This document shows, piece by piece, positions 8,088 to 32,457 of a stretch of DNA of 33,047 bases. The translations under genes were made by a program, and so were the position numbers. The notes below the pieces were generated by a model that did not search any database, was not told the DNA's origin, and was given only the letters and a program-made list of their open reading frames with translations. This DNA is from Caldilineaceae bacterium (GTDB lineage Bacteria > Chloroflexota > Anaerolineae > Caldilineales > Caldilineaceae), in the NCBI GenBank assembly GCA_026989655.1, contig JALSIX010000010.1, positions 1 to 33,047 on the forward strand, in the 5' to 3' direction. The first letter of the stretch is position 1. Every line of letters begins with the position of its first letter.

Positions 8088-8702
8088 ATGGGCGCAGAGG
8101 CACGGAGAGCCGGGGGGTTGGACGCGTTCATCCGAACCACCAGCCAGCGGGCGGTCTCCTATCCCCTCTCCCCAGCAGGCACCCGTGCCTTTCTCCTGGA
8201 ATTCGCCCGGCGGACCGCGGGGATCGATCTCTCCTCTCTGGCCCGGCCCAGACGCTTTCTTCGGCAACTGGTGGCCATGCCTCCAGAGGTGTGGGGCGTG
8301 GAGGGCTTTCGGGCCAGCCTGATCGACGACCCCAACCCGGCCCGCCACTACGCGGCCTTCGTGTTCGTGGGCTACTGGCTTCCCGCTCCGCTGGGATACC
8401 TGGCCCTGTGGCTGTGGGAGCTGGCCGGAATGGTCCGCTACGGATACTGGAGCATCCCGGACCTGCGTTCGGGCTACATCGGGCTGTGGCACGGCCGTCT
8501 GGTGCGCCGCTATGGCCACACGGTGTTGCCCGCGCTCATGGCCCGGGATCTGGGCGAGACGATCTGGGGGCGGCTGTCCGCCTCAGGCCAACGGGCTGTG
8601 GCCCAGGCCCGATACCGGGATGGCCGTCCGTGGGTATGGGACGCGGACGAGGTAGACGGGGAGGTCAGCCATGAAGATCATCCTGGATCGGGGCCTGTGT
8701 GA
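8088..8702 (+). CDS. Unknown protein, 204 aa, one hydrophobic segment
   Basis: I do not recognise this protein. It starts at ATG 8088, about 10 bases after a GAGAGGGGG stretch; an upstream TTG at 8043 would overlap the racemase. Residues about 85-120 are rich in W, Y and hydrophobics (FVFVGYWLPAPLGYLALW) and could be one membrane helix or a buried core. The flanks are arginine-rich and soluble in character. The gene begins 20 bases after the racemase stop and overlaps the next gene by 32 bases, so it belongs to the same transcript. Codon bias matches its neighbours, which supports a real gene. Confidence 0.6.
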   Translation: MGAEARRAGGLDAFIRTTSQRAVSYPLSPAGTRAFLLEFARRTAGIDLSSLARPRRFLRQLVAMPPEVWGVEGFRASLIDDPNPARHYAAFVFVGYWLPAPLGYLALWLWELAGMVRYGYWSIPDLRSGYIGLWHGRLVRRYGHTVLPALMARDLGETIWGRLSASGQRAVAQARYRDGRPWVWDADEVDGEVSHEDHPGSGPV

Positions 8703-9021
8703 TGCGACCCTGGAGTTCTGTTCCCGGTGCTCCGCGGCCTTCTTCCGCAAACCCCTGGGCACAGACCGGCCCTGCGTGGTCGCGGTGATCGACGACGGCC
8801 GAGACGACGTGCTCCACTTTGTGCTGCGCACGGACGGCCGGGAGCTGGAGTTCGATCTGACCGACGAGGTCCGGGAGGGGCTGATCACCGAGGGGTGGGA
8901 GTTCCTGGCCGACTTCGACCCGGCTCTGTTCCGCCATGGGGCCGCGGAGCGGTGGCGGGAGATCGGACGGCTGCCGGCAGCGCACCCTGCCGTGGACGTG
9001 GAGTCCCCTTCCGAGGGCTGA
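8671..9021 (+). CDS. Unknown small protein, 116 aa
   Basis: The ATG at 8671 follows GGGGAGGT closely. The product is acidic and soluble. A CSRC pair sits near residue 18 (LEFCSRCSAAFFRKP), which could be a half zinc knuckle. The middle alternates strand-like runs (VVAVIDDG, VLHFVLRTDG, ELEFDLTDE). No family is recognised. It overlaps the 3' end of the preceding unknown gene, suggesting translational coupling, and is the last plus-strand gene before the convergent peptidase. Confidence 0.6.
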   Translation: MKIILDRGLCDATLEFCSRCSAAFFRKPLGTDRPCVVAVIDDGRDDVLHFVLRTDGRELEFDLTDEVREGLITEGWEFLADFDPALFRHGAAERWREIGRLPAAHPAVDVESPSEG

Positions 9022-9084
9022 GGGGACGTTCCAGAGGGGAGCCATCCAGGCGGCCCGGAGAGGCGGGCGGGGTCTGCCTCCCGT

Positions 9085-10524
9085 TCACTGGGTTGTGCGC
9101 AGCTCCACGAAGGTGGTCCGTCCGGCCTCCACCTGGATCCGCCGGGTCACCTGCTCGCCGTTGATGGTGGCCGTGACCGCGTAGGTGCCCGGTGGCACGT
9201 GGCCCACCGCGGCGTTCTCCCCCCAGATGGGATCGGGCTGGAGGGGTTCCTCCGCCGCGTAGGTCTCCACCGAGCGGTACCACTGCCCCTGTCCATCCAC
9301 GTAGCGGACGAGGCCCACCCGGACGCCCGGCCAGGCCCGCCCTTGGCGGTCCACCACCCGCAGGGCCACCACCCCCGTGTCCGGAGGCGGCTCCATCCAC
9401 AGGATGGGGTTCACCGTGGTCGCGTAGCTGTTCTCCGCCACCCGGACCTCCACGTGCAGGTGGGGGCCGATGGCGATCCCCTCCATCCCCACCGCACCCA
9501 CCACATCCTCCGGCTGCACGGACTGGCCGGCCTGCGCGTAGACCGCGCTCATGTGGCCGTAGAGCACGTAGATCTCCTTCTCGCCCTCGGGGGTGCGGAG
9601 GCGCCTGTCCAGCCGGATCACCACCGCGTTGCCGTAGAAGTTCGAGTAGGGGCCCAGAACGGTGGGCATGTCCCGGCCGGCATGGACCACCTGGCCCGTG
9701 ACGCCGGCCCGGATCGGGGTGCCCATGGGGTTGGGGATGTCCAGCCCGTGGTGGACCCGATACCGTCCCCCGGCGGTGCTCCCGAACGCGTAGCTCGCGC
9801 TGTAGATCCGGTTGAACTCCGGCAGGAAGGGGCTGGCCAGCCACAGGTGGTCCTGGGCCGGATCCGGGATGCGGTCGGGCCACAGGGGACCCGCGCGGAC
9901 GGCCGGGGCCGGCGGCGTGGGTGCGGGGAGTGGAACCCAGGCGGGGGTGGCCCGGGAGGCGGGCAGGGCCTTGGGTTGCCCGGGCCCGGAGAGGGCAGGG
10001 GCTCCCGCGGCCTCCCGGACTCGAGAGGCCTGGGCCCGGGCCAGCGCGCTCAGGGCCTTCAGCCGCAGCCGCAGCAGGCCCTGGCCGTCCATGGGGGGGC
10101 CGGCCCGCATGCTGGGTTCGGGAACGAGGGCCGGCACATCCAGCGGGATCCATCGGGCCTCGGCTTCCGAGGCCGCGATCTCGGCCACGGCCCGAGGCCC
10201 GGTGCGGATCCGTTGACCCGGACCCGGGAGGGCATCGGATCTCCCTGGGGCAGATCGGGGAGCCCGGACCCCCACCGCGCTCCGGGCCGGGGGACCTGGG
10301 GCCGTGGGGGCTGCCCCGGCTGCTCTCTCGGCAGGGGGCGATGGGGCCTCCATGGGCCGGGTCCGCTCCAGGGGGCTCGACCCCTCCGGCGCCTGGGGCC
10401 ATCCCAGCCAGACCACGGCCGCCAGTCCCAGGGCCAACCCCACCTGGCCAGCCCGCAGCCCCAGCCGAGACGGCTCCACAGGGGCCCGGACCAGGAGGGG
10501 CCGGGGCAGCTTCACCCGGGCCAT
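9085..10524 (-). CDS. Membrane-anchored M23 (LytM-type) peptidase
   Basis: A 479-residue protein from ATG 10524. One membrane helix ([15 protein letters not shown]) near residues 25-42 is followed by about 190 residues rich in Pro, Ala and Arg, then the M23 domain. Zinc ligands are visible as H259-x2-D262 (HHGLDIP) and H357 in HLHVEV, with a YGHMS segment between them. The last ~90 residues look like a beta-sandwich accessory domain of the carboxypeptidase-regulatory type ([13 protein letters not shown]). It probably cleaves peptidoglycan cross-links outside the membrane. The frame is open to 10728, adding 68 residues, but that part overlaps the trmD promoter and start; no strong ribosome-binding site marks either start, so the N terminus is uncertain. 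Confidence 0.8.
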
Positions 10525-11750: not shown

Positions 11751-11823
11751 CGCCCCCAAGGGGATTCGAACCCCTGTTGCAGGCTTGAAAGGCCTGAGTC
11801 CTAGTCCTCTAGACGATGGGGGC
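11751..11823 (-). tRNA. tRNA-Glu (UUC)
   Basis: On the minus strand a full cloverleaf can be folded. The acceptor GCCCCCA pairs with TGGGGGC, the D-arm contains CTAGAGGACTAG, the anticodon arm is CAGGC-CTTTCAA-GCCTG with anticodon TTC, and the T-arm is CAGGGGTTCGAATCCCCT. The discriminator base is G. CCA is not encoded, so it is added after transcription. A good promoter lies 23 bases upstream and a hairpin just downstream. Confidence 0.97.
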
Positions 11824-18334: not shown

Positions 18335-19135
18335 CTATTCGCCGCCCTGTTCCTTGCGCTGTCGGGCCCGCTCCGCGGCCTTCCGCTTCAGCTCCTCCAG
18401 CCGGGCCTTGCGGGCCTCCGGGTCCTCGCCACCGGTCTGGGCCTGTTGTCGCTGTTTGGCCCGCTCTGCGGCCTTCTGCTTCAGCGCCTCCCGCCCCTGG
18501 GGGGAGCGTTGAGCCTTGGGCCCGGCGGCCTTGGCCTGTTCCTTGGCGGCCTTCTCCGCCTCCTCCCGTCGTCGCCTCTCCTCCTCCTGGGCGTACTGGG
18601 TGGGCCACAGGGCCGCGTAGTACTCCAGGGGCACGGTGAGCTCCTCCATGTCGTAGACCAGTTGGGGGTACCGGTCGTAGACCGCGAGCTCGTAGTCGTG
18701 GTTCATCTTGATGGCGTCGAAGGGGCAGAACTCCGCGCAGAAGCTGCAGCTCATGCAGACCACCGCGTCGATGTAGAACTCCGCGGGGCGGGTGACGGGC
18801 TTGCCCTTCTCGTCCGTGTCCCGCACGATCCAGATGCACTGGGGAGGGCAGACCTTGGCGCAGATGCCGCAGGCGGTGCAGCGGTCCTCTCCCTTCTCCG
18901 TGTCCCAGATGAGCATGGGGATGAAGCGGAACCGCTCGGGCAGCAGCCGCTTCTCCTCCGGGTACTGGATGGTGAGCAGCCCTTCCTGGTCGATGGGCTG
19001 GCGGATGATGCGCCGGCCGTTGACCTCCTGGCTCCCCCGGTAGCGGCTGGGCACCTCCTGCATGTCGTCGGTGTAGGTCTGGATGAGGTGCTTGATGGTC
19101 ACCCCCAGGCCCTTGAGCAACCCCGTTCCGAACAT
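18335..19135 (-). CDS. nuoI: NADH-quinone oxidoreductase subunit I
   Basis: A 266-residue ferredoxin-like subunit carrying clusters N6a and N6b. Ligands are C86, C89, C92, C96 and C127, C130, C133, C137. An N-terminal amphipathic stretch (GLGVTIKHLIQTY) matches the family. It is about 80-100 residues longer than most NuoI. From about residue 185 the chain becomes a highly charged, Ala/Lys/Arg/Gln-rich helix with an internal repeat (LKQKAAERAKQRQQ and LKRKAAERARQRKE). AGGAGCGAG is nine bases before ATG 19135. It transfers electrons from the peripheral arm toward NuoB and quinone. The gene follows nuoCD by 36 bases. Confidence 0.95.
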   Translation of the reverse strand: MFGTGLLKGLGVTIKHLIQTYTDDMQEVPSRYRGSQEVNGRRIIRQPIDQEGLLTIQYPEEKRLLPERFRFIPMLIWDTEKGEDRCTACGICAKVCPPQCIWIVRDTDEKGKPVTRPAEFYIDAVVCMSCSFCAEFCPFDAIKMNHDYELAVYDRYPQLVYDMEELTVPLEYYAALWPTQYAQEEERRRREEAEKAAKEQAKAAGPKAQRSPQGREALKQKAAERAKQRQQAQTGGEDPEARKARLEELKRKAAERARQRKEQGGE

Positions 19136-19171: not shown

Positions 19172-21025
19172 TCAGCGGTCCACTTCACCCAACACGATGT
19201 CGATGGCCCCCAGGACCACGATGGCGTCCGCGACCTTGTAGCCCACGCACATGGGGCCCAGGGCGTTCAGGTTGATGTAGCTGGGGGCCCGGACGTGGTA
19301 GCGGTAGGGGTTGGGCTTGCCGTCGCTGACCAGGTAGAAGCCCAGCTCGCCCTTGGGGGCCTCGATCCGGCTGTAGATCTCCCCTTCCGGCGGCCGCAGG
19401 GTGTATCCCCCCTTGCCGCCCAGGATGGTGCCGAAGCCCTCCTCCAGGGTGGCGGACGCGTAGGCCGGCGGGCCGTGCACCTCGCCGCCGGGGATGTCCC
19501 GGAGGGCCTGCTGCAGGATGCGCACGGCCTCCCGGGCCTCCAACAGGCGGATGTAGTAGCGGTCGTAGACGTCGCTGTTGGGCAGGGTGGGGATGTCGAA
19601 CTCGAACCGGTCGTAGATGCCGTAGGGCTCTGCCTTGCGGATGTCGTAGGCCACGCCCGCGGCCCGGATCATGGGGCCCGAGACGCTGAGCGCGATGAGG
19701 TCCTCCGCGGAGAGGTAGCCCACGCCCCGGCAGCGGGCCTTGACGATCTCGTTCTCGGAGATGAGCCGGTCCAGCTCGTCCAGGGCCCGGGGAAGCCGCT
19801 CCTGGGCCAGGTAGCGGGCCCGCTCCAGCCAGCCGGGGGTCAGGTCTCGGACCACGCCGCCGAAGCGGAAGTAGTTGCACATCATCCGGGAGCCGGAGAC
19901 CTCCTCGAAGAGGTCCAGGATCATCTCCCGCTCTTCGATGGCGTAGAGGGCCGGGGTCTGGAGGGCCCCCAGGTCGTTGAGGAGGAAGCCGATGGACCAC
20001 ATGTGGTTGAGGATCCGGGTCAGCTCGGCCATGATGACCCGGATGTACTCGGCCCGTTCCGGGACCTGGATGCCGGCCAGCTTCTCCACGGCCAGGGCGT
20101 AGGCCCAGTTGTTGCTCATGGAGTTCAGGTAGTCCAGCCGGTCGGTGAAGGGCATGTTCATGAGCCAGGTGTTCCGCTCCCCGATCTTCTCGTGGTTGCG
20201 GTGGAGGTAGCCCATCTCCGGCTCCAGGGCCAGGATGGTCTCCCCTTCCACCCGGGTGAGCATGCGGAACACGCCGTGGGTGCTGGGGTGGTGGGGCCCC
20301 AGGTTGATGACGATGCTCTCGGTGTGGACGTGGGGCCGCCGCTCTTCCTCCTCTGGGTCCTGGACCACTGGGTGGGGGGCCATGCTGACGGGCACGTAGG
20401 CCACCGGCTCCTGCCAGGTGTCCGGGTCCCAGCCTGGGGGGTAGGTGGTGTTCTTGCCCCAGGGGAGCTTGTCCTCGTGGAACTGGTAGCCTCCTCGGGG
20501 GTGGCGGCTCTTGAAGGGCTTGGTGTCCTGCTCGTAGTAGGCCTCCTTCCAGTCCTTGCGCATGGGATGGCCGTGGAAGCCCTCCCAGAGGAGGATCCGG
20601 CGCAGGTTAGGATGCCCCTCGAACCGGATGCCGTAGAGGTCGTAGACCTCCCGTTCCTGGAGGTTGGCGCCCGGGTAGACGCCCACCGCGCTGGGCACGG
20701 TCTCGTTCTCGGGCACCCGGACGTGCAGGGCGATGTGGCCGCCGCCCTTCCGGGTGCTGTAGAGGTGGTAGACCACCTCGAAGCGCTCCTGGACACCCTT
20801 GCGCTTCTTGCCCTGATAGGTCAGGTAGTCCACGCAGGTGAGGTTGGACAGGTAGTCGTAGCCCAGCTCGTCCCGCAGGTGGGTGAGCAGGGGGATGAGC
20901 TTGTCGGGCGCGACGAGGTAGGCCTTGTCCGTCTCCTCGGCCCAGGTGCCGAGGACCGCGCCGGGGACCGCGTCGTTGAAGGGGAGCTGTTCGGTGCCTT
21001 CGGCCACCGCGGTGGGTTCACTCAT
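19172..21025 (-). CDS. nuoCD: NADH-quinone oxidoreductase, fused subunits C and D
   Basis: A 617-residue fusion. Residues about 1-200 are the 30-kDa NuoC domain ([29 protein letters not shown]). After a linker rich in Pro and Glu, residues about 240-617 are the 49-kDa NuoD domain ([26 protein letters not shown], the [15 protein letters not shown] helix, and the end [17 protein letters not shown]). NuoD forms the quinone pocket with NuoB. CD fusions are known in enterobacteria; in other lineages the genes are often separate. GGAGAG precedes ATG 21025. It begins 31 bases after nuoB. Confidence 0.96.
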
Positions 21026-21056: not shown

Positions 21057-21842
21057 TCAACCGCCCCGCTTCGCGGCCAGGCGCCGTTTGGCCTCCTCGA
21101 TCCGGGCCCGGGCCTTGTCGGAGAGCTGGGCCGGGCCTGCGGCCTTGGTGGGCTCCGCGGCCTGGGCGGCCTGGGCCGCCTCCCGGGTGGCCTGGAGGGT
21201 GTGCTCCTTGATGAGCTCCACCTGCCGGGGGTCGAAGATGTCCGGGCCCAGGCGGGGGACCGGAACGTAGCCGCTGAAGCCCTCCTGGTACCAGGGCACG
21301 GTGGCGATGCTCTGGCGCTCGATCTTCTCGTGGAGCTTCATCATGCCGTAGATGAGGGCCTCGGGCGTGGGCGGACAGCCGGGCACGTAGACGTCCACGG
21401 GGATGTACTTGTCCACCCCGCTGACCACGTTGTAGCCCTCCTTGAAGGGGCCACCCCCGCTGGCACACGCGCCCATGGCCACCACGTAGCGGGGCTCGGC
21501 CATCTGGTTGTAGATGCGCACGATGGCCGGGATCATCTTCTTGGTCACGGTGCCCGAGACGATCATCAGGTCGCTCTGGCGGGGGCTGGGCCGCATGACC
21601 TCCATCCCGAAGCGGGCCATGTCGTAGCGGCTGGCCGCGGTGGCGATCATCTCGATGGCGCAGCAGGCCAGGCCGAACAGCAGGGGCCACATGCTGGAAC
21701 GCCGGCTCCAGTTGTAGAGCTTGTCCAGGGTGGTGACCAGGACGTTCTGCCGGAGCTCGGGCGGCACCTGGATGGAGTCGTGCAGGTACTGCTGGATCTG
21801 CTGCTCCTTGAGCTTGTAGAAATCTGAGGGAACTGTGGCCAT
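21057..21842 (-). CDS. nuoB: NADH-quinone oxidoreductase subunit B
   Basis: A 261-residue subunit that carries the terminal cluster N2. Ligands are C60 and C61 (LACCAIEM), C126 (GACASGGG) and C156 ([11 protein letters not shown]). The body ends near residue 185. The remaining ~75 residues are a lineage-specific, Ala-rich, charged tail ending [19 protein letters not shown], like the tail of NuoI. GAGGACAGAG lies before ATG 21842. It is the first gene of the minus-strand nuo block, with two promoters upstream. nuoA, E-H and J-N are absent from the window. Confidence 0.95.
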
Positions 21843-23808: not shown

Positions 23809-25236
23809 ATGCATCCGAAGACGCGCTGGTCTGTGCTGGTGGCTCTGCTCGTGGTGGCAGCCCTGGTGTTGACGGCCTGTCCGGCCCAGCCGGCGGCCGC
23901 GCCGGCCCAGGAGGCGGCTGGGGAGGAGGCCGCGGCCGCGCCCGCGGAGGAGGCCGGCCCCGGCGAGGAGCCCCTGGAGATCGTGGTCTGGGCCCAGGCC
24001 AACAACGTGGAGCGTTGGCGCGCGGACGGGCCGGCCAAGGCCGCGGAGATGGTCACCGACTTCAACGTGAAGGTGGTCCCCGTGAACGACGACTCGGGCT
24101 GGGGCGAGTACAAGCAGAAGTTCACCCTGGCCGCGGACTCCGGCGAGGCGCCGGACATCGTGGTCTCCGGCCACGAGGACATCCCCGTGTGGGCCAACGC
24201 GGGCTACATCACCGAGTTCGACTGGTGCCGGGAGCGCTATCCGGAGTTCGACGACGTCATCGAGAGCCTCTGGAACTCGGCCACCTGGAAGGGCAAGCTC
24301 TGGGGTGTGCCCCAGGACACGGAGGCTCGGCCCATGTTCTTCAACAAGAAGAAGCTGGCCGAGATGGGGTGGTCCCAGGAGGAGATCGACGCCCTGCCCG
24401 AGCGGATCAAGAACGGGGAGTTCACCCTGGACGACATGATCGCGACGGCCAAGGAGGCCATCGAGAAGGGCGTGGTGGAGCCCGGCTACGGCTACTGGCA
24501 TCGGCCCCGCAAGGGCGGCGACTTCATCCAGTACTACGCGGCCTACGGCGGTCGCCTCTACGATCCCGAGCAGGACAAGCTGGTGATCGACCGGGAGGCC
24601 CTGGAGAACTGGTACGCGTTCCAGCGTCGGGTGGTGGAGGAGGGCATCACCCCGGAGAACTACATCGGCACCGAGTGGAGCATCTGGCACGACACCGTCT
24701 CCCGGGGCCAGGCTCTCTTCTGGAACGGCGGCATCTGGCAGTGGGCCGACTGGGCGGTGAACTACGTGGCCGACCTGGGCGGCGAGGAGTACCTGTTCAG
24801 CTTCGTGGGCTACGCGCTGCAGCCCTCGGGCATCCCCGGCCGGCCCGGGGTCACCCTCTCCCATCCCCTGGTCTACATGATCACCACGCCGGAGGCCTCG
24901 GGCAAGGAGAACCAGGACGCGGCCTGCGCGGTGTTGGCCAAGACCACCACCCCGGAGATCAACACCCTCCACGCGGTGGAGAGCACCCACCTGGGCATCC
25001 TGAAGTCCCAGGCCGACTACCCGGACTACGCCAACAACCGCTTCCTCTCCGACGTGCTCTACATGCTGGACTACAACTTCTACCAGCCGAACCACGTGAT
25101 GTACGGTCCCTACTTCGACATCCTGTGGGACTTCATGGTGAAGGCCGAGAACGGTGAGATGTCGCCGGCCGACGCGGCCAACGCGGCCATCGAGCTGCTC
25201 CAGGCCGAGCTGGCCGACGCGGTCCTGGTGGAGTGA
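23809..25236 (+). CDS. ABC importer solute-binding lipoprotein (carbohydrate-type)
   Basis: A 475-residue lipoprotein. A signal peptide with the lipobox LTAC places the lipidated cysteine at C24. A low-complexity Ala/Glu/Pro linker (about residues 25-55) precedes an extracellular-binding domain of the UgpB/MalE type: LEIVVWAQANN, APDIVVSGHEDI, WKGKLWGVPQDTEARPMFFNKKKL, and FWNGGIWQWADW, with many tryptophans that could stack on a sugar ring. AAGGAGGAGG sits just before the ATG, an optimal ribosome-binding site fitting the high demand for a binding protein. It is the first gene of the importer operon. The ligand cannot be read. Confidence 0.9.
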   Translation: MHPKTRWSVLVALLVVAALVLTACPAQPAAAPAQEAAGEEAAAAPAEEAGPGEEPLEIVVWAQANNVERWRADGPAKAAEMVTDFNVKVVPVNDDSGWGEYKQKFTLAADSGEAPDIVVSGHEDIPVWANAGYITEFDWCRERYPEFDDVIESLWNSATWKGKLWGVPQDTEARPMFFNKKKLAEMGWSQEEIDALPERIKNGEFTLDDMIATAKEAIEKGVVEPGYGYWHRPRKGGDFIQYYAAYGGRLYDPEQDKLVIDREALENWYAFQRRVVEEGITPENYIGTEWSIWHDTVSRGQALFWNGGIWQWADWAVNYVADLGGEEYLFSFVGYALQPSGIPGRPGVTLSHPLVYMITTPEASGKENQDAACAVLAKTTTPEINTLHAVESTHLGILKSQADYPDYANNRFLSDVLYMLDYNFYQPNHVMYGPYFDILWDFMVKAENGEMSPADAANAAIELLQAELADAVLVE

Positions 25237-25260
25237 CCGCGGGTGAGAGCGGCGTCACTG

Positions 25261-25290
25261 GGGCAGGGCCGGATCCCCCCGGCCCTGCCC
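25261..25290 (+). terminator. First of two hairpins between binding protein and permease
   Basis: GGGCAGGGCCGG and CCGGCCCTGCCC form a perfect 12-bp stem with a six-base loop. No T-run follows, so it more likely stabilises the upstream mRNA or reduces readthrough than ends transcription completely. Confidence 0.55.
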
Positions 25291-25291
25291 G

Positions 25292-25309
25292 CCTCCCGGT
25301 GTCGGGAGG
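25292..25309 (+). terminator. Second hairpin between binding protein and permease
   Basis: CCTCCCG-GTGT-CGGGAGG, a 7-bp stem directly after the first hairpin and 24 bases before the permease start. Confidence 0.45.
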
Positions 25310-25333
25310 GCAGCCTCTCGGGAGAGCATCCCA

Positions 25334-26308
25334 ATGACCACCATCGATGAACGGATCCCCTCCACCCTGCCCGTGACGGCCCGGACGCCCTGGTGGAGCA
25401 ACCTCCGGCGCATGGTTGCCCCGCTCCTCTTCATGAGCCCCGCCTCCCTGCTGGTGCTGGTCTTCTTCTTCACCCCGGTGCTCATCCTCTTCGGCATCTC
25501 CCTGACCAATCTGAGCAGCTCCACCGGCTTCCGGAACTGGGAGTGGGTTGGCCTGGAGAACTACCGCCGGATCTTCGTCCATCCCCAGTCCGTGGACGTC
25601 TTTCGCAACACGGTGAAGTACGTGTTGTTCACCCTGGCCCTCTTCAACGTGGGCCTGGCCATGGTCCTGGCCCTGTTGACCACCCACATTCCCCGGCGAA
25701 CCGGGTTCTTCTTCCGCTCCCTCTGGCTGCTTCCCCGGATCACCCCCTCGGTGGTCTACATCATGATGTGGAAGTACATGGCCGCGGACGCTCCGTACGG
25801 GATCCTGAACCAACATCTGTTCGGCCCCCTGGGGGTGGAGCCCACCAACTGGCTCCCGGCCCAGGCCTGGGCCTTCGTGATCCTCACCAACGGCTTCGTG
25901 GGGGCCTCCTTCGGCATGATCATCTTCACGTCGGCCATCGAGTCCATCCCCCGGGACTACATGATCGCGGCCCTGGTGGACGGGTGCAACCTCCTCCAGC
26001 GGATCCGCTACGTGATCCTGCCCATGCTGCGCTGGCCCCTCCTCTTCGTCACCACGTATCAGACCCTGTCCCTGTTGACCTCCTTTGAGTACATTCTCCT
26101 CCTGACCGAGGGCCAGTTCAACACGGAGGTCTGGTCCCTGTGGGCCTACCAGCGGGCTCTGAACAACTACTGGGGCAACTTCCAATGGGGGTTCGGCGCG
26201 GCCCTGGCCATGATCCTGGTCGGGGTGGGGCTGCTCATGGCCGTGGTCTACATGCGCTACTTCCAGTTCAACCAGTTGGTCCAGGAGCCCAAGATCGAGG
26301 CCCTGTAG
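25334..26308 (+). CDS. ABC importer permease, MalF/UgpA type
   Basis: A 324-residue integral membrane protein with about six transmembrane helices, the first at residues about 34-55 (LLVLVFFFTPVLILF). The EAA-type coupling loop is DYMIAALVDGCNLLQRIRYVILPML at residues about 211-235, where A-x-x-D-G precedes the conserved LP. It forms the channel with the second permease and docks on the ATPase through this loop. It begins 97 bases after the binding-protein gene, past two hairpins. Confidence 0.9.
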   Translation: MTTIDERIPSTLPVTARTPWWSNLRRMVAPLLFMSPASLLVLVFFFTPVLILFGISLTNLSSSTGFRNWEWVGLENYRRIFVHPQSVDVFRNTVKYVLFTLALFNVGLAMVLALLTTHIPRRTGFFFRSLWLLPRITPSVVYIMMWKYMAADAPYGILNQHLFGPLGVEPTNWLPAQAWAFVILTNGFVGASFGMIIFTSAIESIPRDYMIAALVDGCNLLQRIRYVILPMLRWPLLFVTTYQTLSLLTSFEYILLLTEGQFNTEVWSLWAYQRALNNYWGNFQWGFGAALAMILVGVGLLMAVVYMRYFQFNQLVQEPKIEAL

Positions 26309-26326
26309 CATTCGGAGTGCGTTGCC

Positions 26327-27226
26327 ATGGACGAACACCTGGGTACCGGCTCCCGCTGGCGGGTCGCGATCCCGTTGGCGCTGTTGACGGGGATCTCCCT
26401 GCCCATCGCGGTGGGCTACATCTGGATCGGGGTCTCCACCTTCTCCCAGCGGACCTTCGGTCTCGTCCCGGTGGACAGCCAGGGGAACGTGGGCGGCCTG
26501 ACCCTGGACAACTGGTCCTTCCTCTGGGAGGACCCCAAGATCTGGCAGGTCACCCTGAACACCTTCATCCTGGCGGTGGGGCTCACCCTGGGGGTGGTCC
26601 TCATCTCGGCCCTGGCCGGCTACGCGCTCTCCCGGATCTCCTTCCCGGGACGGCGCCCCTTCCTGGCCACCACCCTGATCCTCCACGCCTTTCCCAGCGT
26701 GACCCTGCTCATCGCCATCTACTTCGTGCTCCGCTGGCTGGCCCAGCTTCCCCTGGTGGGCCGAGACCTGCCCCTCATCGGTGGCATCGGCTACAACACC
26801 CTGGGCGGCGTGATCCTGGTGAGCGTGGGCCTGGAGCTCCCCCTGGGGATCTGGCTGATGAAGGGGTTCTTCGACAACATCTCCTGGGACATCGAGCGGG
26901 CCGCGCTCATCGACGGCTGCAGCCGTTTCCGGGTCTGGTGGCAGATCCTCATGCCCCTGATCAAGCCCGGGGTGGCCGCGCTCTCCATCTTCTCCTTCAT
27001 CTCCGGGTGGAACTCCTTCCTGATCCCCTACACCTTCATCACCACCATGGAGAAGAGCACCCTCGCGGCCTACCTGCGCAGCCTGCTCAGCGACACCGCG
27101 CCGGTGAACTACAGCACCGTCGCGGCCGTGGGCCTCTTCCAGCTCATCCCCGTCCTGCTCTTCTTCTTCTTCACCCAGGAGTACCTGTTGAACATCTTCA
27201 GCGGCGGCACCAAAGGCGGGACATGA
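26327..27226 (+). CDS. ABC importer permease, MalG/UgpE type
   Basis: A 299-residue membrane protein with about six helices. The coupling loop IERAALIDGCSRFRVWWQILMPLI has the EAA-like A-x-x-D-G pattern and the LP end. The C-terminal part ALSIFSFISGWNSFLIPY is characteristic of MalG/UgpE proteins. CGGAG lies 13 bases before ATG 26327. The stop overlaps the ATPase start (ATGA). Confidence 0.9.
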   Translation: MDEHLGTGSRWRVAIPLALLTGISLPIAVGYIWIGVSTFSQRTFGLVPVDSQGNVGGLTLDNWSFLWEDPKIWQVTLNTFILAVGLTLGVVLISALAGYALSRISFPGRRPFLATTLILHAFPSVTLLIAIYFVLRWLAQLPLVGRDLPLIGGIGYNTLGGVILVSVGLELPLGIWLMKGFFDNISWDIERAALIDGCSRFRVWWQILMPLIKPGVAALSIFSFISGWNSFLIPYTFITTMEKSTLAAYLRSLLSDTAPVNYSTVAAVGLFQLIPVLLFFFFTQEYLLNIFSGGTKGGT

Positions 27227-28299
27227 TGGAAGTCCGACTCATCCAGCTGACCAAGCGTTTCGGCGACGTGACCGCGGTGGACCGGGTGGACCTGGAGGTG
27301 GGCCACGGGGAGTTCGTGGCCCTGCTGGGGCCTTCGGGGTGCGGCAAGACCACCACCCTGCTCATGATCGCGGGCATCTACGCGCCCACCGGAGGGGAGA
27401 TCCGCTTCGACGACCGGGTGGTCAACCGGATCCCGCCCAAGGACCGGAACATCGGCATGGTCTTCCAGAGCTACGCCCTCTACCCCCACATGACCGTGCT
27501 GGAGAACATCACCTTCCCCATGCGCCTGAAGAAGGTGCCCAAGGAGGTGATGCTGAAGCGGGCCCAGGAGGTCGCGGACATGATGGGCATCGGCCACCTG
27601 ATGGATCGCCGGCCAGGCCAGCTCTCCGGCGGCCAGCAGCAGCGGGTGGCCCTGGGCCGGGCCCTGGCCAAGGAGCCGGACATCCTGCTCTTCGACGAGC
27701 CCCTGAGCAACCTGGACGCCCGGCTCCGTCTCTCCATGCGCGCGGAGATCAAGCGCCTCCAGATCGAGCTGGGCATCACCTCCATCTACGTCACCCACGA
27801 TCAGGTGGAGGCCATGACCATGGCCGACCGGATCGCGGTCATGCGGGAGGGCAAGCTCCAGGCCTACGAGACCCCCGATGACCTCTACGACCGGCCGAAG
27901 AACCTCTTCATCGCCGGCTTCATCGGCAACCCTCCCATGAACTTCCTGGACGTGGAGGTGGTCCACCAGGGGGAGCGCTACCTGGCCCGGCGCCCCGGCC
28001 TGGAGGTGGCGGTGGCGCCCGAACGGGCCCAGAAGGCCGCGGGCCGGGGCACGGTGATCCTGGGCATCCGCCCCGAGGACGTCACCGTGGGGCAGGGCCC
28101 CATTCAGGGCCAGGTCTACGTGGTGGAGCCCCTGGGACGGGATGACCTGCTGGACATCCAGGTGGGGGACATCCGCATCCACGCCCTGGCGGATCCGGCC
28201 AGACGCTATGCCATGGGAGACTCGGTCCAACTGGCCATCGATCCCGACGCGGTCCAGTTCTTCGACCCACGCACCGAACAGTCTCTGTTGTGGACATAG
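27223..28299 (+). CDS. ABC importer ATPase, MalK/MsmK/UgpC type
   Basis: A 358-residue ATPase. It has Walker A GPSGCGKTT, the Q-loop in MVFQSYALYPHMT, signature LSGGQQQRVALGRAL, Walker B LLFDEPLSNLD and the switch histidine in YVTHDQVEAMT. Residues about 240-358 form the TOBE-type regulatory domain of CUT1 transporters (GTVILGIRPEDV). ATG 27223 overlaps the permease stop; a second ATG follows at once. The operon order (binding protein, two permeases, own ATPase) is complete, so the importer does not need a shared ATPase. Confidence 0.93.
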   Translation: MMEVRLIQLTKRFGDVTAVDRVDLEVGHGEFVALLGPSGCGKTTTLLMIAGIYAPTGGEIRFDDRVVNRIPPKDRNIGMVFQSYALYPHMTVLENITFPMRLKKVPKEVMLKRAQEVADMMGIGHLMDRRPGQLSGGQQQRVALGRALAKEPDILLFDEPLSNLDARLRLSMRAEIKRLQIELGITSIYVTHDQVEAMTMADRIAVMREGKLQAYETPDDLYDRPKNLFIAGFIGNPPMNFLDVEVVHQGERYLARRPGLEVAVAPERAQKAAGRGTVILGIRPEDVTVGQGPIQGQVYVVEPLGRDDLLDIQVGDIRIHALADPARRYAMGDSVQLAIDPDAVQFFDPRTEQSLLWT

Positions 28300-28330: not shown

Positions 28331-28360
28331 ACCGCCCGCCCCGTCGGGCGGTTTCCTTTT
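28331..28360 (+). terminator. Rho-independent terminator after the ABC operon
   Basis: ACCGCCCG-CCCCGT-CGGGCGGT forms an 8-bp stem followed by TTTCCTTTT. It sits 31 bases after the ATPase stop and only 27 bases before the next start codon. Confidence 0.8.
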
Positions 28361-28387
28361 GCACACCCGGACGGGGGAAAGATCCCA

Positions 28388-29887
28388 ATGGCACGCAACT
28401 GGATGCGGGAACTGGCCCGCCACTACGAGCGCATGCGCCAGCGATACCCCGGCGACCGGCTGATGATCGTCTTCGACATCGACGGCACCATCCTGGACAT
28501 GCGCTACATGATCGCGCATGTGCTCAAGGAGTACGACAAGGCCCACGGGACCCACCACTTCGATGGCCTGCAGCCCGAGGCCATCCATGTCCACGAGAAC
28601 CAGGTCCACCTCCTCCTGGACTCCATGGGCCTGCCCCCCGGGGTGCGGGAGGAGGTGTTGCGCTGGTACCGGAAACGGCGCTGGACCCCGGTGGCCATTC
28701 GCCACAGCCATCGGCCCTTCCGGGGCGTCCTGGAGGTGATCCGCTGGTTCCAGATCCAGCCCAACACCTACGTGGGCCTGAACACCGGCCGGCCCGCATA
28801 CCTCCGGGAGGAGACCCTGCGCAGCCTCAATACCCTGGGCCGGGCCCACGGCGTCCACTTCGACGACGCGCTGCTCCACATGAACCCCCAGGACTGGGAG
28901 GAGCACGTGGCCCAGGCCAAGGTGGCCGGCATCCGCTATTTCCAGGAACAGGGCTACCGGGTCTTCGCGTACGTGGACAACGAGCCCGAGAACCTGGCCG
29001 CGGTGGCCGAGTACGACCGGGGCGGCGAGATCCTCCTCCTCCACGCGGACACCCTCTTCGAATCCCGACGGGACCGGCTGCCGGCCCGCTCGGTCACGGG
29101 GCACACCTACGAGCTGGTGGAGCTGATCCCCGAACGACGCCTGCCCCGCCGGGTCCAGTTCGTCTGGCACGGCATCAACGACCACGCCAACCTGCGTCAG
29201 TTCCTGGCCGCGGAGAACGTCCGCTGGGGAGAGTTCGACGTCCAGCTCGACCCAGAGGCCGACCACCGGGTGGTCCTGCGCCACGACCGGGTGGAGGAAG
29301 CCCCCCTGAGCGAGGAGGAGGAGCTCCTCACCCTGGACTACGTGTTGACCCGTATCCGAGAGCGGGGCAAGGCGGTGAAGTTGGACCTGAAGAACAACGG
29401 CCGGCTGGTGGACCGGGTCCTGGAGCTGGTGGATCGCTTCGGCTTCCGGGACGAGGAGCTCTGGTTCAATGCCGAGGTGGACCTCATCGGCCCCGAGGGC
29501 TTCCGGAAGCTCCAGGCCGCCCACCCCGGCGCGATCCGCCAGTGTCCCATCGACCATCTGGCCGCCACCATCCTCACGGATCCCAGCCTGGCCCGGGCCG
29601 AGCTGGACCGCTACCGCTCCTGGGGGATCAATCGCTTCTCCCTCAGCTGGTTCACCCCCGAGCTGCGGGCCCTCCTGAACCAGATGGACGCCTGGGGATA
29701 CGAGGTGAACATCTACGACATCCCAGACCTGGAGGCCTTCCTCCGGGCGGTCCTCCTCCTGCCCCGCTCCGTCACCGCGGACTTCAACTTCCCCCAGTGG
29801 CACTACTACGGACGGGGCTCCGGCCACAAGGGACGACACTACGAGTACCTGGTCCGAGAGGTGAACGTCCGGGAGGAACCCCGGTAG
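28388..29887 (+). CDS. HAD hydrolase fused to a FAM151/menorin-like (DUF2181) domain
   Basis: A 499-residue two-domain protein. Residues about 20-225 are HAD-like: motif I D30-I-D32-G-T, motif II LNTGRP, and motif IV region VFAYVDNEPENL. Residues about 255-480 resemble FAM151/menorin proteins, distant relatives of glycerophosphodiester phosphodiesterases: FVWHGINDHANL, GEFDVQLD, GKAVKLDLKNN, LWFNAEVDLIGPEGF and NRFSLSWFTPEL. The first His, the E-x-D pair and the KLDLK strand fit a TIM-barrel metal site. Together the domains could open a phosphodiester and then remove the phosphate. The ATG follows GGGGGAAAG. It lies directly after the ABC importer, as ugpQ often does after ugpBAEC, but past a terminator. 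Confidence 0.65.
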   Translation: MARNWMRELARHYERMRQRYPGDRLMIVFDIDGTILDMRYMIAHVLKEYDKAHGTHHFDGLQPEAIHVHENQVHLLLDSMGLPPGVREEVLRWYRKRRWTPVAIRHSHRPFRGVLEVIRWFQIQPNTYVGLNTGRPAYLREETLRSLNTLGRAHGVHFDDALLHMNPQDWEEHVAQAKVAGIRYFQEQGYRVFAYVDNEPENLAAVAEYDRGGEILLLHADTLFESRRDRLPARSVTGHTYELVELIPERRLPRRVQFVWHGINDHANLRQFLAAENVRWGEFDVQLDPEADHRVVLRHDRVEEAPLSEEEELLTLDYVLTRIRERGKAVKLDLKNNGRLVDRVLELVDRFGFRDEELWFNAEVDLIGPEGFRKLQAAHPGAIRQCPIDHLAATILTDPSLARAELDRYRSWGINRFSLSWFTPELRALLNQMDAWGYEVNIYDIPDLEAFLRAVLLLPRSVTADFNFPQWHYYGRGSGHKGRHYEYLVREVNVREEPR

Positions 29888-29947: not shown

Positions 29948-32329
29948 TCAGCGGCCCGCCTCGGCCGGACGTCCCGTCGAGCCCCTCTCCAGCGCGTCCA
30001 ACCGGGCCTCCAGGGCCGTCAGCCGAGCCTCCAGCCCGGCGATCTGGGCGTCCCGGGCCGCCAGCACGGTCTGCACCAGCTCCAGATCCGGCAGGCCCAC
30101 CAGCACCCGGACGGTGTGGATCCCCTCCTCGGGGACCGTCTCCAGGGCTCGCCCCACCACCTGGCCCATCTGGGCTGGGGTGATCTGGGCCGGGGCCACC
30201 GCGATGCCGGTGCCGTCGTCCCGGCCCGAGGGCAGGATGAGGTCGCCGGCCTGGACCGGCCCCCGCACCCGTGCCGAGACCTGGCCCACGAAGGCCACCG
30301 GCACCCAGCCGGGGCGGTTCTCCTCCTCGGGCGTGTTGCCCGCGATGAGGGGCGCGGTGCTGACCACCATCATCCGCAGGGCCTCCCGGGTCTCCAGGGT
30401 GATCCCCTCAGGCGTCCAGGCCACGATGTCCCCGGGCTGGACCTGGGGCTCGGTTGCCGGATCCCGCAGGGGGAGCCACTCGGCGAAATCGGCGCTGCTG
30501 GAGTAGTAGGTCACGCCGCCGCTGCTGTTCCCCTGGATGGCCCCCACGCGCTGGTTGTTCGCATCGTAGAAGACGATGAAGCCGACGCCGGTCAGGTTGC
30601 CGCTGCGCTGAACCCTGATCCCCATGCCCTGGGGACAGGTGGGGTTGCATGCACCGGCGGTGTTCTCGATCCAGGCCACGAAGTTCCCGAAGGGCGGCAC
30701 TCCGAACCCGCCCGACCGAGGGGCACGCACGTCCAGAGGCGTCTGGGGCGACGAGATCCCGATGCCCACCAGGCCGTTTCCAGTGATGCTCATCACGTCG
30801 CCCCGGTTGCTGTTCCAGATGTTCAGCCGGTCGGCGCCCAGGCCGGAGCCGATGAGGCCGGCGATGTGCCAGCGGCGGGCCGTGTTGGCCGTGTTGGCGA
30901 ACTCCAGCCGCGCGTAGTCGGCGCCCTGCTCCTCCAGGCGCAGGGTTGGGAAGGCTGTGGTGGAGTTGGCCGACACGTGGAGCTTCCCCTTGGGCGCATT
31001 GGTGTCGATGCCTACCCCGCCCCCGGCCCGAACCAGGAACTGGTTGATGTCGGTGGAGGCGAAGCTCCCGGGCTGGCTGTCGGCCCAGACGAAGGTGCCG
31101 TCGTGCATGGCCTTGGCCCTCGAACCGGCCGCGAGGCTGGCGTCCCCGGCCGCGATGTTGGAGACCCCACCGGGGACCGTGGCCGAGGGCCCCGAGGCCT
31201 GGTTGTACTGCCCGCCGGCAACCGTGGCGTATTTCGCCGAGGCCTGGTTGTACTGCCCACCGGAGACCGTGGCCGAGAGCCCCGAGGCCTGGTTGTACCG
31301 CCCGCCGGCAACCGTGGCGTAGGCCGCGTTGGTGCTGCTCCCATCGTCGTTCCCCGCCTGGTTCCCCAGGCCTCCGGCCACCGTGCCGTAGTCGTCCGTC
31401 ACCCTGTTCCCCTCCGAGGGGCCGGTGCCCTCCTCCACCGAGCCCCCGCCGCCGATGGTCGCGCCCACCGCATTTCCCGTCACCGCGTTGTTCGGCGAGC
31501 CGCCGACGATGTTGGGGCTGCTGAGGTTGGGTTCCACCCGCCAGGCCCGTCGTCCGTCCACCCGGATCTCCAGGGGCTGGTCGTCCGTGGTGCCCAGGAA
31601 GTCTGTGCTGGGGTTCGTGCCGGCGTTGCCGCCCTGCTTCCAGTAGCGGTTGTCCGTGTAGTCTGTGTTCAGGCTCAGGGTGACGGCCCCCGACTTCCCG
31701 CCGCCGGCCAGCCCGGTGCCCGCGGTCACCGCGGTGATGTCGCCGCCGCTGTCCGCGTCCGGGGCGCAGACCCAGGCCGTGCCGTTCCACTTGGCCACCT
31801 GGTTGTCGGTGCAGGACAGGTTGGCCAGGGTGTCGTCGTCGCCGTCCGACAGCCCGGCGGGCACACCGGTCAGTCCGCTCCAGGGAGCGGTGCGGCTGTA
31901 GAGCGCGTAGGGGGTGGCCGTCAACGCCTGGCGGGGGCTCAACACCGTGTAGGTGCCGGTGCTGTTGCCAGGACGGACCTCCACCTGGAGCCAGCGGGCA
32001 TCGCCGTTGAACGCGTCGCCGCCGAAGTCGAGCTGGACGGTGAGGAGGCCATCCGCGACGGCCACGTCGTCCACGGTGATCGGGCTGCCCACCGCGCTGC
32101 CCCCCACGGGTGCATCGTAGAGGGTGAAGCGGAGATCGTAGACGCCGTTGGCCGGGTTGCCGCCATCCACCAGGCGCCCTTGGTAGGTGAAGGCCGTGCC
32201 CAGGGCCCCGGCCGTGGCCCGGGGCGTGTCCCCCCCGGGCTCCTGGGCCTGCACCCGATCGGGGGCCACGGAACCCACCAGGAGGGCCAGAGCTGTGAGG
32301 ATACCGAACCAGCGAGACAAGCGTTCCAT
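29948..32329 (-). CDS. Secreted surface protein with YadA-head-like repeats and C-terminal coiled coil
   Basis: A 793-residue exported protein. After a signal peptide (LTALALLVGSVAPDRVQA) comes a beta domain found in many bacterial surface proteins (FTYQGRLVDGG, YDLRFTLYDAPVGG, LSPRQALTATPYA). Next is a Gly/Thr region (CTDNQVAKWNGTAWVCAPD) like phage tail-fibre necks, then five 15-residue units of the ATVAGGQYNQASG type, as in trimeric autotransporter heads. A later region (YSSSADFAEWLP, VQPGDIVAW) resembles the folding or cap domain before C-terminal coiled coils. The end (DAQIAGLEARLTALEARLDALE) is a heptad coiled coil suited to trimers. No autotransporter barrel is present. AAGGAGG precedes ATG 32329. 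Confidence 0.75.
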   Translation of the reverse strand: MERLSRWFGILTALALLVGSVAPDRVQAQEPGGDTPRATAGALGTAFTYQGRLVDGGNPANGVYDLRFTLYDAPVGGSAVGSPITVDDVAVADGLLTVQLDFGGDAFNGDARWLQVEVRPGNSTGTYTVLSPRQALTATPYALYSRTAPWSGLTGVPAGLSDGDDDTLANLSCTDNQVAKWNGTAWVCAPDADSGGDITAVTAGTGLAGGGKSGAVTLSLNTDYTDNRYWKQGGNAGTNPSTDFLGTTDDQPLEIRVDGRRAWRVEPNLSSPNIVGGSPNNAVTGNAVGATIGGGGSVEEGTGPSEGNRVTDDYGTVAGGLGNQAGNDDGSSTNAAYATVAGGRYNQASGLSATVSGGQYNQASAKYATVAGGQYNQASGPSATVPGGVSNIAAGDASLAAGSRAKAMHDGTFVWADSQPGSFASTDINQFLVRAGGGVGIDTNAPKGKLHVSANSTTAFPTLRLEEQGADYARLEFANTANTARRWHIAGLIGSGLGADRLNIWNSNRGDVMSITGNGLVGIGISSPQTPLDVRAPRSGGFGVPPFGNFVAWIENTAGACNPTCPQGMGIRVQRSGNLTGVGFIVFYDANNQRVGAIQGNSSGGVTYYSSSADFAEWLPLRDPATEPQVQPGDIVAWTPEGITLETREALRMMVVSTAPLIAGNTPEEENRPGWVPVAFVGQVSARVRGPVQAGDLILPSGRDDGTGIAVAPAQITPAQMGQVVGRALETVPEEGIHTVRVLVGLPDLELVQTVLAARDAQIAGLEARLTALEARLDALERGSTGRPAEAGR
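31097..31321 (-). repeat. Five tandem 45-bp units (15 residues each)
   Basis: Within the surface-protein gene the units start at 31321, 31276, 31231, 31186 and 31141 on the minus strand. They encode YATVAGGRYNQASGL, SATVSGGQYNQASAK, YATVAGGQYNQASGP, SATVPGGVSNIAAGD and a diverged ASLAAGSRAKAMHDG. The first three are nearly identical in DNA, so the array could expand or contract by slippage or recombination. Confidence 0.9.
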
Positions 32330-32371
32330 GGGGTCAACCTCCTTGTTCTGTGGGCGGGCTGCCCACCCAAC

Positions 32372-32457
32372 GGTGCAGCCGCGGCGCGCGGGGCACCGGG
32401 CCATGGCCACCGCCCCCCTTCCCTGGCCTGGCGACCGGGGAGGAGCCGCGGTGCACC
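32372..32457. repeat. Long-range inverted repeat upstream of the surface-protein gene
   Basis: GGTGCAGCCGCGG (32372-32384) and CCGCGGTGCACC (32446-32457) are complementary apart from one missing base, with about 61 bases between. The left arm is identical to 2198-2210. The role is unknown; it may shape the mRNA between the two secreted-protein genes. Confidence 0.4.

Follow-up and report, generated by a model that had tools for sequence, protein, structure and literature searches.

The window, i.e., the whole stretch of 33,047 nucleotides of Caldilineaceae DNA analysed here, carries on its forward strand a complete ABC cassette of the CUT1 type (23809-28299) and, directly 3' of it, a gene (28388-29887) whose product joins an N-terminal HAD phosphatase domain to a C-terminal barrel of menorin-like character. 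The cassette encodes (i) a substrate-binding lipoprotein (23809-25236; SBP_bac_8, MalE-like), for which the start codon is the one proposed in this analysis, (ii) a first permease (25334-26308; BPD_transp_1, MalF/UgpA-like), (iii) a second permease (26327-27226; BPD_transp_1, MalG/UgpE-like), each permease scoring under both cut-offs, and (iv) an ATPase (27223-28299; ABC_tran, OB_MalK and TOBE). The first-pass annotation of this DNA had described a complete importer of the UgpBAEC type; the completeness of the cassette stands, while its identity as UgpBAEC does not. Respective to the NCBIfam models, the ATPase finds its best match in the UgpC subfamily under the cut-off (396.8 bits versus 432), UgpA and UgpE score far below theirs (43.6 versus 335 and 66.7 versus 297), the MalF, MalG and MalK models score comparably to the Ugp models, and the binding protein has no UgpB match at E ≤ 0.01. 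Assignment to UgpBAEC specifically was rejected on these grounds. The binding protein is nearest to the MalE-type sugar binders, its solved relatives also being sugar binders, and the importer as a whole is, judging from its sequence, a generic CUT1 system of the sugar type. Separating the fusion gene from that of the ATPase is a terminator-like hairpin (28331-28362, forward strand) with a GC-rich stem of 8 bp, a loop of 6 nt and a T-rich tail (local z of -3.1), so that co-transcription of the ABC genes with the fusion gene cannot be assumed.

The fusion gene occupies exactly the frame originally reported, from the ATG at 28388 to a TAG stop ending at 29887, without any break, and encodes 499 residues. 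Upstream of the ATG, the purine-rich GGGGGAAAG is a plausible ribosome-binding site. HAD motifs and segments resembling DUF2181/FAM151 had been recognised by eye in this single frame, namely DIDGT (residues 30-34), WHGIN (260-264), KLDLKN (331-336), and FNAEVDLIGP (360-369); they are indeed present, and chance resemblance can be dismissed, since 17 full-length homologues of diverse phyla show little or no variation at most of these positions. An assembly artefact or a chance fusion is ruled out, because full-length frames devoid of internal stops recur in independent assemblies; the fusion is thus real. Inspection by eye reveals no signal peptide at the N-terminus. At the other end, the tail formed by residues 471-499 (29798-29884) is modelled with low confidence, yet contains a conserved WHYYGRGSG.

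The N-terminal domain (residues 1-248; 28388-29131) is a C1-capped HAD phosphatase domain bearing D30xD32, T133, K178, and D197/E199, i.e., motifs I (DxD), II (T/S), III (K) and IV (acidic) set in a Rossmann-like fold. In a fold search with an AlphaFold2 model, residues 10-248 matched C1-capped, phosphoglycolate-phosphatase-like HADs with a Z of about 15 (14-15). Sequence relatedness to these enzymes is weak, the best Pfam match of the window protein alone being PF03767 at 1e-5, whose 25.6 bits fall just under the gathering score of 27; when the whole family is considered, all 17 members match a Pfam HAD model at E ≤ 1 (best 2.8e-8). D30, D32, T133, and K178 are kept in every one of the 17 members and D197 in 16. 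While fold and motifs I-IV are common to the window domain, the phosphoglycolate-phosphatase-like enzymes and the phosphatase domain of Acinetobacter MtlD, the partner is a phosphodiesterase-type barrel in the former and a dehydrogenase in MtlD.

The C-terminal domain (residues 254-470; 29147-29797) is predicted to be a TIM barrel of a menorin-like branch of the GDPD/PLC-like superfamily. The AlphaFold2 model, built from the 17 homologues, recovers both domains (pLDDT 85.9, pTM 0.83), and the fold search with residues 254-470 returned about thirty GDPD entries at Z 16-20 (maximum 20.1), including the Agrobacterium GDPD, Bacillus subtilis GlpQ with glycerol-3-phosphate and the T. tengcongensis GDPD, spider venom phospholipase D ranking lower. 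The barrel would escape routine annotation, since the Pfam HAD match is sub-threshold, Pfam gives for the window protein alone neither a Menorin match at E ≤ 10 nor a GDPD match, NCBIfam assigns nothing useful to the barrel, and searches of PDB sequences with P0001, A1 and A3 found no meaningful relatives. At the level of the family, 11 of the 17 members match PF10223 (Menorin) at E ≤ 1 (best 3.1e-7), one of them, in genome G008, exceeding the gathering cut-off (31.7 versus 25 bits), and none matches PF03009 (GDPD) at E ≤ 1. Profile comparison with hhalign relates the barrel to prokaryotic menorins (probability 96.7, E 3.9e-10, about 30% identity over 93 columns) and to GDPDs (probability 94.4%, E 8.8e-8), whereas menorins and GDPDs compared directly reach a probability of 20% only. 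By these profiles, the barrel is nearer to menorin/FAM151 than to GDPD and, as each of them matches it so much better than they match one another, it bridges both. The resemblance of the C-terminal half to DUF2181 and GDPD, as put forward in the first-pass annotation, is thereby borne out by profiles and by fold alike.

Like the menorin/FAM151 proteins (PF10223, formerly DUF2181), the barrel exhibits the WHGxN, E.D, H, and KxDxK motifs and, in the alignment, lacks the insertion of about 45 residues that in GDPDs separates the HD motif from the strand after it; unlike them, it lies below Pfam detection, resembles GDPDs more closely in its WxExDVRxDP and RHDxF signatures and has a HAD domain as fusion partner. 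With the GDPDs (PF03009; e.g., UgpQ and GlpQ), it has in common the fold and the metal and acid-base residues, i.e., two His and three acidic predicted metal ligands, the third ligand being D in the barrel and E in GDPDs. Motifs and profile similarity speak for menorin and the modelled fold for GDPD, and the window protein reaches neither the PF10223 gathering score nor a match to PF03009. Because the window protein has no PF10223 match while 11 of its homologues do, the barrel is called here menorin-like rather than filed as a member of PF10223. According to a published analysis, FAM151 belongs to the PLC-like phosphodiesterase superfamily, the animal proteins possessing one or two menorin domains whose substrate is unknown (PMC6965129). 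The source genome also carries, separately from the fusion, a canonical menorin gene (G000:C82:2454-3107, reverse strand; locus L001; PF10223 E 1.9e-52), and such genes occur in another five genomes out of 40 relatives, which shows that the menorin family extends beyond animals.

Mapping of the active site by alignment brings E282, D284, and H299 into the columns of both the GDPD ELD...HD and the menorin E.D...H residues, and D333 into that of the menorin KxDxK aspartate and the GDPD glutamate; the roles of these residues and of H261 we take to be those of established GDPD enzymology. The window protein possesses the complete H/E/D/H/D set, metal-site residues included, alongside complete HAD motifs. 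H261, E282, and D333 are each found in 16 of the 17 members, D284 in 15 and H299 in 14, and the five together in 14 members from many phyla. Damage is confined to the member at L022 (1955-3448), with H261N, E282K, H299A, and D333H, and to the pair L019/L020, with D284T/S and H299D; the HAD site is spared in every case. The L022 protein, with its degenerate site, reads as a natural mutant with a dead barrel, and these losses next to an intact HAD site indicate that some carriers do without the barrel reaction.

Scanning one genome for each of 84,980 species yielded 19 loci whose products share 42-59% identity with the window protein. Of these, 16 are near full length, while contig ends or a stop truncate the other three. 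The carriers are titled as Aminicenantes, Zixibacteria, Acidobacteria, Marinimicrobia, Anammoxibacter, Chloroflexi, Nitrospirota, Planctomycetota, Deltaproteobacteria (grouped as Myxococcota in the tree), an unclassified bacterium, Heimdallarchaeota and another archaeon. The fusion thus recurs in archaea and across numerous bacterial phyla, which answers positively the earlier question of whether it exists in other genomes, but its occurrence is sparse. In the window's own family, 4 of 46 genomes have the barrel, three as a fusion and one (G016) as a free-standing protein of 253 residues with its site intact; under even sampling of the Chloroflexota, the fusion is found in 2 of 400 genomes, source genome included, and among the relatives of an Aminicenantes carrier in 2 of 99. 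No relatives were found on plasmids and viral contigs. The fusion is accordingly either old or mobile, well conserved wherever it occurs, and rare. Horizontal transfer seems likely from the tree, where the Chloroflexota do not form one group and phylum groups are not cleanly recovered, the support being moderate; metagenome binning errors may lie behind single occurrences.

Three further Chloroflexota (L011, L016, and L036) also have an orthologous CUT1 cassette next to the fusion, and an ATPase fragment is found near it in L008, whereas no such importer is adjacent to most members outside this phylum; recurrence of the cassette, suggested at the outset as a check, is borne out for these Chloroflexota. 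The order of an importer followed by a protein of GDPD fold recalls the E. coli-type ugpBAECQ operon, from which the window differs by a generic CUT1 importer, by a diesterase-like protein equipped with its own phosphatase domain and by the hairpin in between. Most non-Chloroflexota loci have no neighbours in common with the window. At L008, the fusion starts 3 nt after the gene of a protein whose C-terminal domain is a GDPD, and a second, canonical GDPD lies on the other side; a homologue of the first is directly downstream of the fusion at L011, the canonical HRG motif being missing from both homologues. At L014, the fusion is directly followed by genes for PstS-like and PstCAB-like proteins (a binding protein of the phosphate type, two permeases and an ATPase) and PhoU, and preceded by those for a response regulator and a sensor kinase. 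At L019 and L020, a Na/Pi cotransporter with a PhoU domain is immediately upstream, with an alkaline phosphatase 4 kb away at L020. With about three GDPD genes and a few phosphate-uptake genes among thousands per genome, several such immediate neighbours in unrelated lineages are, by rough estimate, unlikely to be there by accident. The N-terminal domain of the GDPD-domain neighbours, about 240 residues long with a conserved EYAIWWDWDIxHLYxLEHIW and no Pfam match, occurs at L011:3704-5191, L008:1582-2982, L016:9175-9891, and L036:10973-11698, free-standing in two loci and fused to the degenerate-motif GDPD domain in the two others; in the model of the L011 protein (pLDDT 62, low confidence), the fold search confirmed the GDPD half only.

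Altogether, the most likely reading, which we hold to be somewhat probable, is that of a cytoplasmic two-domain hydrolase, where the barrel splits a small phosphodiester, the product of which is then dephosphorylated by the HAD domain; we infer that both sites are active and act in sequence on one molecule, and the substrate class is likewise proposed. The barrel would hydrolyse a small, water-soluble phosphodiester (a glycerophosphodiester or a polyol/sugar phosphodiester) by metal-assisted acid-base catalysis, with H261 and H299 as the putative acid-base pair and E282, D284, and D333 as ligands of one divalent metal by analogy with GDPDs, giving an alcohol and a phosphomonoester. The latter would be dephosphorylated through an aspartyl-phosphate on D30, for a net yield of phosphate and alcohol, polyol or sugar from the imported diester. 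As the protein has no evident signal peptide, its substrate must enter the cell, with which the importer beside the fusion in Chloroflexota is consistent. In Caldilineaceae and some other Chloroflexota, the fusion would probably be fed by the neighbouring CUT1 importer, and in other lineages it may serve phosphate scavenging, the overall role being presumably one of phosphate and carbon salvage. From neighbours and fold, glycerophosphodiesters are the leading substrate candidates, albeit tentatively, and inositol phosphodiesters come next as decidedly doubtful ones.

The phosphate-related neighbours in unrelated lineages make the two-step enzyme more likely. Counting against it are the hairpin that sets the ABC cassette apart from the fusion gene, the degenerate or altered barrel sites of L022 and L019/L020, the lack of neighbours in common with the window at most non-Chloroflexota loci and the missing HRG motif in the GDPD-domain neighbours of L008 and L011. 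It is unlikely that the HAD domain is the sole working enzyme and the barrel a former phosphodiesterase turned to substrate binding, positioning or regulation: a HAD motif invariant in nearly all 17 members and the three members, from two lineages, that retain a damaged-site barrel would fit this explanation, but the retention of all five barrel residues in the other members across many phyla argues against it, and the free-standing barrel of G016 with an intact site is hard to explain as a HAD accessory. The acidobacterial locus L010, where a myo-inositol oxygenase gene (8492-9343; Pfam MIOX 1.1e-111) lies 82 nt upstream of the fusion on the same strand, points to another scheme, in which glycerophosphoinositol or di-inositol phosphate would be cleaved by the barrel in the manner of a PI-PLC, the HAD domain serving as an inositol-phosphate phosphatase. 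The barrel superfamily does include PLC enzymes (PMC6965129), but the link to inositol is seen at this one locus, the others pointing to general phosphate uptake, GDPDs and sugar-type importers, which leaves the scheme rather improbable.

Promiscuous phosphatases are common among HADs, and the patchy, sparse distribution with varied neighbours could likewise suggest domains acting on unrelated substrates, or in housekeeping and damage repair (e.g., of toxic sugar phosphates), without any link to import. That lineages so far apart have kept the two domains together, at the identities given above, and that phosphate and phosphodiester genes recur beside them make this very improbable. Returning to the two-step hydrolase, it is a real but tentative prospect that these proteins form a distinct family of single-chain phosphodiester-to-phosphate enzymes spread over bacterial phyla and archaea, with a barrel that is an evolutionary intermediate between GDPD and menorin, menorin-type barrels being then true phosphodiesterases whose phosphomonoester product a HAD can use.

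No description of a HAD domain joined to a menorin/GDPD-like barrel was found in searches of the open literature. Both domains come from superfamilies already known; what is new is the combination of domains together with a barrel subfamily between two named families. A precedent for a HAD phosphatase joined to a second enzyme domain is the HAD-terpene cyclase fusion of drimenol synthase (PMC12365925), of which the partner domain and chemistry are unrelated to those of the window protein. FAM151/menorin proteins have roles in dendrite branching and retinal survival (PMC6965129), and a bacterial barrel bridging menorin and GDPD, with an attached phosphatase that would act on its product, could provide a soluble test system and a clue to the menorin substrate. 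If the proposed function is true, it would also constitute a bacterial route from phosphodiesters to phosphate within one protein.

Elsewhere in the window, the reverse strand encodes at 29948-32410 a putative surface protein of 820 residues with repeated YNQASGxxATVxGG units, similar to the head repeats of trimeric adhesins, and at 19172-21025 an ORF of 617 residues resembling by eye a fused NuoC-NuoD, adjoined by NuoB-like (21057-21842) and NuoI-like (18335-19135) ORFs, likewise by eye. A tRNA gene at 11751-11823 on the reverse strand (Rfam, 61 bits) is the only RNA family match within the window.
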